DNA from: Fibrobacter sp.
GTDB taxonomy: Bacteria; Fibrobacterota; Fibrobacteria; Fibrobacterales; Fibrobacteraceae
Length of the DNA: 49,811 nucleotides
Assembly (NCBI RefSeq): GCF_017551775.1
Contig: NZ_JAFZKX010000035.1
Span: 1 to 49,811 of the forward strand
Reading direction: 5' to 3'
A model generated the notes under the pieces. The model saw nothing but the letters and a program-made list of their open reading frames with translations, was not told the origin of the DNA and searched no databases. Of the stretch, positions 38,092-49,811 are shown piece by piece (position 1 is the stretch's first letter; every line of letters starts with the position of its first letter). A program made the position numbers and the translations under genes.

Positions 38092-39099
<1,008 letters not shown>

Positions 39100-39101
39100 G
39101 C

Positions 39102-39153
39102 GACCGTTCGTTCGACATATAGGGTGAGGAACCTCCGGTTTCTCACTCACTCT
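39102..39153 (+). repeat. Conserved 3'-UTR element, copy behind mdh
   Basis: This begins 2 nt after the mdh stop codon. It shares GACCG-T-TCGTTCG, the exact 19-mer AACCTCCGGTTTCTCACTC and the following CTCT with a copy placed identically behind fusA (49616-49668). A hairpin GTGAGGAACC-TCC-GGTTTCTCAC (one wobble) is predicted. Confidence 0.7.
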
Positions 39154-39170
39154 TGCAAAATTTATGCAAA

Positions 39171-39202
39171 AAGAATGCCTCCGATTCACTCGGAGGCGTT
39201 TC
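39171..39202. terminator. Bidirectional terminator between mdh and the barrel gene
   Basis: A stem GCCTCCG/CGGAGGC (39178-39198 region) has TTTCTTGTTT on the plus side and TTCTTTTT on the minus side. It serves the convergent mdh and outer-membrane protein genes. Confidence 0.75.
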
Positions 39203-49429: not shown

Positions 49430-49514
49430 GAAATGGAAGTCTTTGGTTTGGCCGGTTAACTTGGCTTTTGGATAAATTATTTAGTCGAATGCTCCTTACT
49501 TAAAATATAATAGA

Positions 49515-49543
49515 AAAGGCCCCGACTGAGTCGGGGTCTTTTT
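49515..49543. terminator. Bidirectional terminator
   Basis: A 7-bp stem CCCCGAC/GTCGGGG (49520-49526 with 49530-49536, loop TGA) has TCTTTTT on the plus side and CCTTTTC on the minus side. On the minus strand it is a second stop signal behind fusA, and its T-tract adjoins the promoter of the gene at 49429. Confidence 0.8.
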
Positions 49544-49586
49544 AAGGTTTTGGAACTTAACCTGCGGTAACCCGTGAACAACAAAG

Positions 49587-49608
49587 CCCTCGGGTGTTAG
49601 CCGAGGGC
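49587..49608 (-). terminator. First terminator-like hairpin behind fusA
   Basis: A stem GCCCTCGG/CCGAGGGC with a 6-7-nt loop is followed on the minus strand by TTTGTTGTT. It lies directly after the conserved 3' element. Confidence 0.6.
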
Positions 49609-49615
49609 GGTTGTG

Positions 49616-49668
49616 AGAGCGAGTGAGAAACCGGAGGTTTCAACACTAGCTCTGACGAACGAGCGGTC
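49616..49668 (-). repeat. Conserved 3'-UTR element, copy behind fusA
   Basis: On the minus strand it begins 2 nt after the fusA stop codon. The fold is AGAGC/GCTCT, GTG/CAC and GAAACC-TCC-GGTTTC, nested. It matches the copy behind mdh (39102-39153) in sequence, position and hairpin shape. Confidence 0.7.
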
Positions 49669-49670
49669 TG

Positions 49671-49811
49671 TTAACCACGCTGGTTGACCTTGTCGCCGTA
49701 CTTCTTGATGAGTTCTTCCTGGATGTTGCGCGGCACCGGAGAGTACTTGCAGAATTCCATGGTGAACTCGGCCTTGCCCTGAGTCATAGAGCGGAGGTCG
49801 GTAGCGTAACC
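49671..49811 (-). CDS. fusA: Elongation factor G, C-terminal fragment
   Basis: The last 46 codons of a gene that continues beyond the right edge. The reading [20 protein letters not shown] followed by YSPVP matches the closing domain V of EF-G, the translocation GTPase. Strong C-ending codon bias suggests high expression, as expected. The stop is TAA. The 3' element and two terminator-like hairpins follow. Whether it is the main EF-G or a paralogue cannot be judged from this part. Confidence 0.9.

Follow-up and report, generated by a model that had tools for sequence, protein, structure and literature searches.

The malate dehydrogenase gene (mdh) and the elongation factor G gene (fusA) of this Fibrobacter sp. 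contig end in the same stretch of letters. Is this stretch a regulatory RNA element of the two genes, or a sequence of another kind? In the window, i.e., the whole 49,811-nt stretch of DNA analysed, the mdh CDS (Pfam Ldh_1_N/Ldh_1_C, 313 aa) lies at 38158–39099 on the forward strand. The 3′ end of fusA (identified by its reading frame, the name being that of the first-pass annotation) lies at 49671–49811 on the reverse strand, where it is cut by the window edge, its TAA being at 49671–49673. The letters described in the first-pass annotation were recovered: GACCG begins 2 nt after both stop codons (TAA-GC-GACCG for mdh, TAA-CA-GACCG for fusA), both copies then read YTCGTTCG, and a common 19-mer is exact at 39130–39148 (+) and 49621–49639 (−), with no further match within the window at ≤3 mismatches (chance expectation 0.02). 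The hairpins also fold as described, behind mdh as GTGAGGAACC TCC GGTTTCTCAC at 39124–39146 (+), perfect with one G-U, and behind fusA as GAAACC/GGTTTC with outer pairs. Each copy then has its own separate native terminator.

Architecture of the repeat unit

When the flanks of the 19-mer matches were read, the 19-mer proved to be the middle of a unit of about 92 nt, ACC–P1–TCTC–P2–TCAC, with two hairpins. The element proposed at 39102–39153 is thus real, but that range covers no more than the unit's 5′ half. The copy behind fusA (49574–49667, −) is complete and matches the covariance model, which was built from 21 units, scoring 85.2 bits when the genome is searched (E 2.1e-15); its RNA fold z-score is −6.1. 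The copy adjoining the TAA of mdh (39102–39189, +) has an intact 5′ half and the native terminator region in place of the 3′ half, and matches over 39103–39189 with 55.9 bits (E 2.8e-10). The terminator hairpin of mdh (39173–39202, +) is native to the gene and outside the repeat, being found also at the empty mdh site of a relative (G005, L136). The native terminator of fusA, read from its sequence at 49514–49537 (−), lies 3′ of the repeat. Further 3′, several relatives (L218, L221–L226) carry a recurrent stretch, TCCTACCCCGCGGTTCGATCCGGCNTCCCTTCTCNAGAACCAGGACT, in appearance a further conserved or structured element.

P1 was obtained by anchored extraction as the 9 nt after ACC paired with the 9 nt before TCTCGC. 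In mdh, GTTCGTTCG (39106–39114, +) pairs with CTCACTCAC (39142–39150, +) with TC/TC internal loops, and in fusA the arms are GCTCGTTCG (49656–49664, −) and CTCACTCGC (49619–49627, −), these arms being assigned from covariation. In its usual form, GYTCGYTCG/CTCRCTCRC, P1 has TC/TC internal loops and its C-G and T-A pairs swap together, and in rarer copies both arms are wholly rewritten yet complementary (e.g., GCAAAGTCT/AGACTTTGC or GAGCAC/GTGCTC). P2 sits between TCTC and TCAC; in fusA it occupies 49578–49614 (−), with the outer arms ACAAC/GTTGT and the inner arms GCCCTCGG/CCGAGGGC. In the sample, 54 distinct inner arm pairs of P2 were found, mostly closed by a TAAT-like tetraloop. The covariation score of the P1 and P2 arms was 0.41 vs 0.12 after shuffling. 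In the helix counts, 76.6% of the cells were paired (58.1% shuffled) and 240 were double-changed (71 shuffled), the alignment model containing no P1 pairs and the P2 counts leaning towards the model because P2 pairs are partly in it. Controls with slid partners were all far below the true pairing. Counts of G-U (22) vs A-C (15) were obtained for pairing as RNA or as single-stranded DNA, respectively. The conserved letters, ACCGYTCG, CCTCCGG, CTCTCGC and GCTCAC, fall outside P2.

The hairpin with the TCC loop is located in the loop of P1 and competes with P1 for bases; behind mdh it overlaps the 3′ arm. It is less conserved than P1 and P2, the two stronger helices. The first-pass annotation held that its stem is kept although the bases differ. 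Among 65 copies of the canonical subfamily this holds for the inner 6 bp or so but not for the GTG/CAC extension; standard pairing at the three positions past CC/GG is seen in 95, 92 and 82% of these copies, with some covariation. Single-sequence folding favours this hairpin over P1 in the canonical subfamily, so that P1 rests there on covariation and not on energy.

The unit also occurs in variant forms. An optional middle module of about 54 nt, CTACCCCCGCAAGGGGGGCCATGYCCACATAAGCGCTRAAGCGCTAAGTGGYCAAAGGTC, is present in about 11 copies of this genome, nearly always between P1 and P2 (L258, L260–L265 and L267, and also L014, L068 and L149), and its sequence is better conserved than P1 or P2. 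Two loci (L005:1376-1547 and L008:1625-1796) share an insertion of about 80 nt (AATAAACCTAAGCCGAGTACAGCAG...) in the P2 loop, i.e., a repeat nested in the repeat.

Copy number and distribution

In the genome, the 19-mer matched 29 places at ≤3 mismatches vs one for the reversed control, and the covariance model retrieved 59 copies of a structured element with covarying stems. Units also occur in head-to-tail arrays with a period of 95–99 bp. Array neighbours often have identical P2 and differing P1, or follow one another as two alternating unit types (L065, L103, L106, L097, L255), a pattern suggestive of an exchange of modules or a duplication of dimers.

Among Fibrobacter genomes, mostly drafts, the covariance model found copies in 77 of 80. 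In a phylum sample of 161 genomes, matches beyond Fibrobacter were restricted to one sister genus in the same family (five genomes), with none in the other Fibrobacterota sampled. In line with this, when 84,980 species genomes were scanned with an exact pattern, only Fibrobacter-titled records matched. Nothing but a tRNA exceeded the Rfam gathering threshold in the window, and four loci with copies gave nothing above the family cut-off at gathering or relaxed thresholds. A limited literature search returned no papers on such repeats in Fibrobacter.

Placement at gene 3′ ends

Counting only the first copy of each array, 42 of 86 begin ≤6 nt after a stop codon on the same strand (1.6% at random) and a further 18 lie directly behind a T-tract, while an antisense stop within 6 nt was found for a single one. 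Many of the remaining first copies come after TAA or TAG of shorter frames. The copies are thus neither limited to mdh and fusA nor scattered without relation to gene ends, the two outcomes named beforehand as speaking against a 3′ element. The stop codons used were TAA (31), TGA (7) and TAG (6), which means that the target is not just the triplet TAA. In this genome, the distance from the upstream stop was −1 to 4 nt in 20 listed entries, two of which are the same copy seen in overlapping loci, and about 52–74 nt in seven others, where a terminator lies between, as judged by reading. The distances are thus bimodal, with none spread across the remaining 3′-UTR. Copies directly behind stops are expected to be transcribed as 3′-UTR, because the native terminator is downstream of them, and a local effect on the mRNA is possible but secondary.

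Since both classes of site, any stop codon and the T-tract of a terminator, can yield mRNA 3′ ends, integration may follow such ends. It is conceivable, albeit improbable, that the 3′ ends of transcripts are themselves what the element homes to, with mRNA ends or terminating ribosomes or polymerases, and not DNA sequence, guiding its integration.

Occupied and empty sites

At the mdh site, the unit or its 5′ end was present in 14 of 30 genomes, belonging to several subfamilies and always at the stop; the other 16 sites were empty, including those of close relatives. One genome (G083) has a full unit and the partial unit at this site, where the present genome has one unit. On the mdh tree, occupancy required at least 10 changes, five of them forced by well supported branches, and followed the tree no better than shuffled labels. 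The fusA site lacked the unit in 9 of 11 relatives, and the other two carry other subfamilies directly behind the stop (L224, L225). At the efp site, the genome reads TAA(GACCG...CTCACGG)TAATTTTAGC, the unit being in brackets, vs TAATTTTAGC in G095. Deletion between repeats could account for some of these differences between empty and filled sites. Solitary 5′ ends (GACCGCTCG...), which have lost the remainder of the unit, were observed directly behind the stop at L230, L231, L233, L234 (efp), L236 and L237, and also at the L019 site.

A target duplication was clear at two sites only, ACGTAA (mdh) and TAA (efp); for 48 copies flanked by host DNA, the words shared by the two flanks were no more frequent than by chance, i.e., there was no general target duplication. 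Terminal inverted repeats were not evident by eye, the ends being ACCGYTCG... and ...GCTCACGG and the best correspondence being CCGTTCGC vs CCGTGAGC.

Three enzymes were considered as mobilisers, i.e., Y1 transposase, reverse transcriptase and DDE_Tnp_1, and they were absent or without association with the repeat. Domain searches found no DDE_Tnp_1 in this genome, and RVT_1 was absent from it and from 10 of 13 genomes. Y1_Tnp occurred in 5 of 13 genomes, its presence being unrelated to copy number, and one of seven Y1 loci was near a copy. The genome encodes two tyrosine recombinases.

Nature of the repeat

The unit is repeated, restricted to one clade, built with covarying arms, multiplied in tandem, placed in sense orientation and distributed over sites regardless of phylogeny. 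Taken at the level of sequence comparison, these features establish that it has spread, and from them we infer how it may move. The first-pass annotation had proposed a stabilising, processing or regulatory element of two highly expressed genes, an interpretation that is supported in part. Such a cis-acting 3′-UTR RNA element, i.e., an mRNA stabiliser or a processing, sRNA or protein site selected gene by gene and spread by duplication, would explain why units stand in sense only behind stop codons with the native terminator downstream, why their stems covary and why they fold stably (z about −6). It would not explain why many close relatives lack the unit at mdh and fusA and why occupancy there is as patchy as random labels, so that the unit is not kept at the same gene across relatives as conserved cis-regulatory RNAs are, nor why units multiply in tandem. 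Moreover, about a fifth of the first copies come after a terminator and are not part of the upstream gene's transcript. The proposed link to high expression is likewise not supported, since the hosts include EF-P, SHMT, fusA and mdh but also UvrC, a GH43 xylosidase, an ABC ATPase and unknown proteins, with no common function or expression class. We regard this explanation as unlikely. Patchy occupancy of mdh and fusA therefore favours a mobile non-autonomous repeat at gene 3′ ends over a conserved 3′-UTR regulator of these genes.

Ordinary intrinsic terminators that converged on one sequence are far less probable still. In their favour, the P2 hairpin is rich in GC, and T-rich sequence comes after it in some cases. 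Against them, the T-run (TTTGTTGC) is poor, none of the conserved letters belong to P2, the sites examined have a native terminator before or after the unit, and units form tandem arrays. A mobile repeat that inserts at random between genes, its exact position at stop codons being due to selection alone, is doubtful to much the same degree as the 3′-UTR element. Insertions in genes and promoters are certainly counter-selected. However, selection of this kind does not account for distances confined to −1 to 4 nt or about 52–74 nt with none elsewhere in the 3′-UTR, nor for solitary 5′ ends that likewise begin directly at the stop.

Our preferred reading, to which we give a probability of about 0.8, is that the unit, about 92 nt long and carrying two hairpins, is an interspersed repeat that moves non-autonomously and inserts where genes end. 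As Y1 transposases do not track the repeat and target duplication fails as a rule, a hairpin repeat mobilised in trans with gene-end targeting was chosen. A putative enzyme acting in trans would recognise P1 as the left end and P2 as the right end and would insert the unit at gene 3′ ends, and the arrays would then lengthen or shorten by recombination or slippage between units. Hairpins near both ends, the lack of inverted termini and a single orientation resemble elements that transpose as single strands.

Relation to known repeats and significance

The repeat is best placed among the bacterial interspersed hairpin repeats (CIR, YPAL, BOX, REP/BIME), as an unusually site-specific one; it works like these, which does not amount to demonstrated membership in any. 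Caulobacter CIR are small and strictly intergenic, with 5′ and 3′ sections that form independent stem-loops joined by a linker and without clear terminal inverted repeats (PMC2229807). Compared by description, the Fibrobacter repeat likewise has two stem-loops and no clear terminal inverted repeats, but CIR belong to another clade, expose a GANTC motif and are described with neither exact stop-codon placement nor tandem arrays (PMC2229807). YPAL/RU-2 of Yersinia is a mobile 168-bp repeat with internal inverted repeats, known empty/filled sites, variable target duplications (3–26 bp) and targets that span or adjoin dyad symmetry (PMC2229807). Mobility, internal inverted repeats and empty/filled sites are common to both, again by description, whereas that source does not present YPAL as sense-only or as adjacent to stop codons, and the Fibrobacter repeat manages with half the length. 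Streptococcal BOX elements are modular, with optional middle modules, and structured if transcribed (PMC3049150). The optional module of about 54 nt is comparable, but BOX repeats its middle module whereas the Fibrobacter repeat multiplies whole units head to tail, and the IS-like terminal inverted repeats of BOX were not seen.

The definitions of REP and MITE each fail on one tested feature. REP/BIME elements with their RAYT are short, non-autonomous hairpins outside genes that form arrays. The Fibrobacter repeat shares these properties but not the associated Y1 transposase, Y1 being rare and unlinked to copies. Like a MITE it is short (92 nt, under about 200 bp), non-coding and present in many copies (59 in this genome), and it differs in having no evident terminal inverted repeats.

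Insertion at stop codons, in one orientation and across a genus, is an unusual target choice for a mobile repeat, and it becomes directly testable how an element locates the ends of genes. The repeat is also a clear case in which selection seems to act on hairpin shape and not on sequence. Array length is a possible marker for strain typing. In these rumen cellulose degraders, each genome gains dozens of structured 3′ ends from the repeat.
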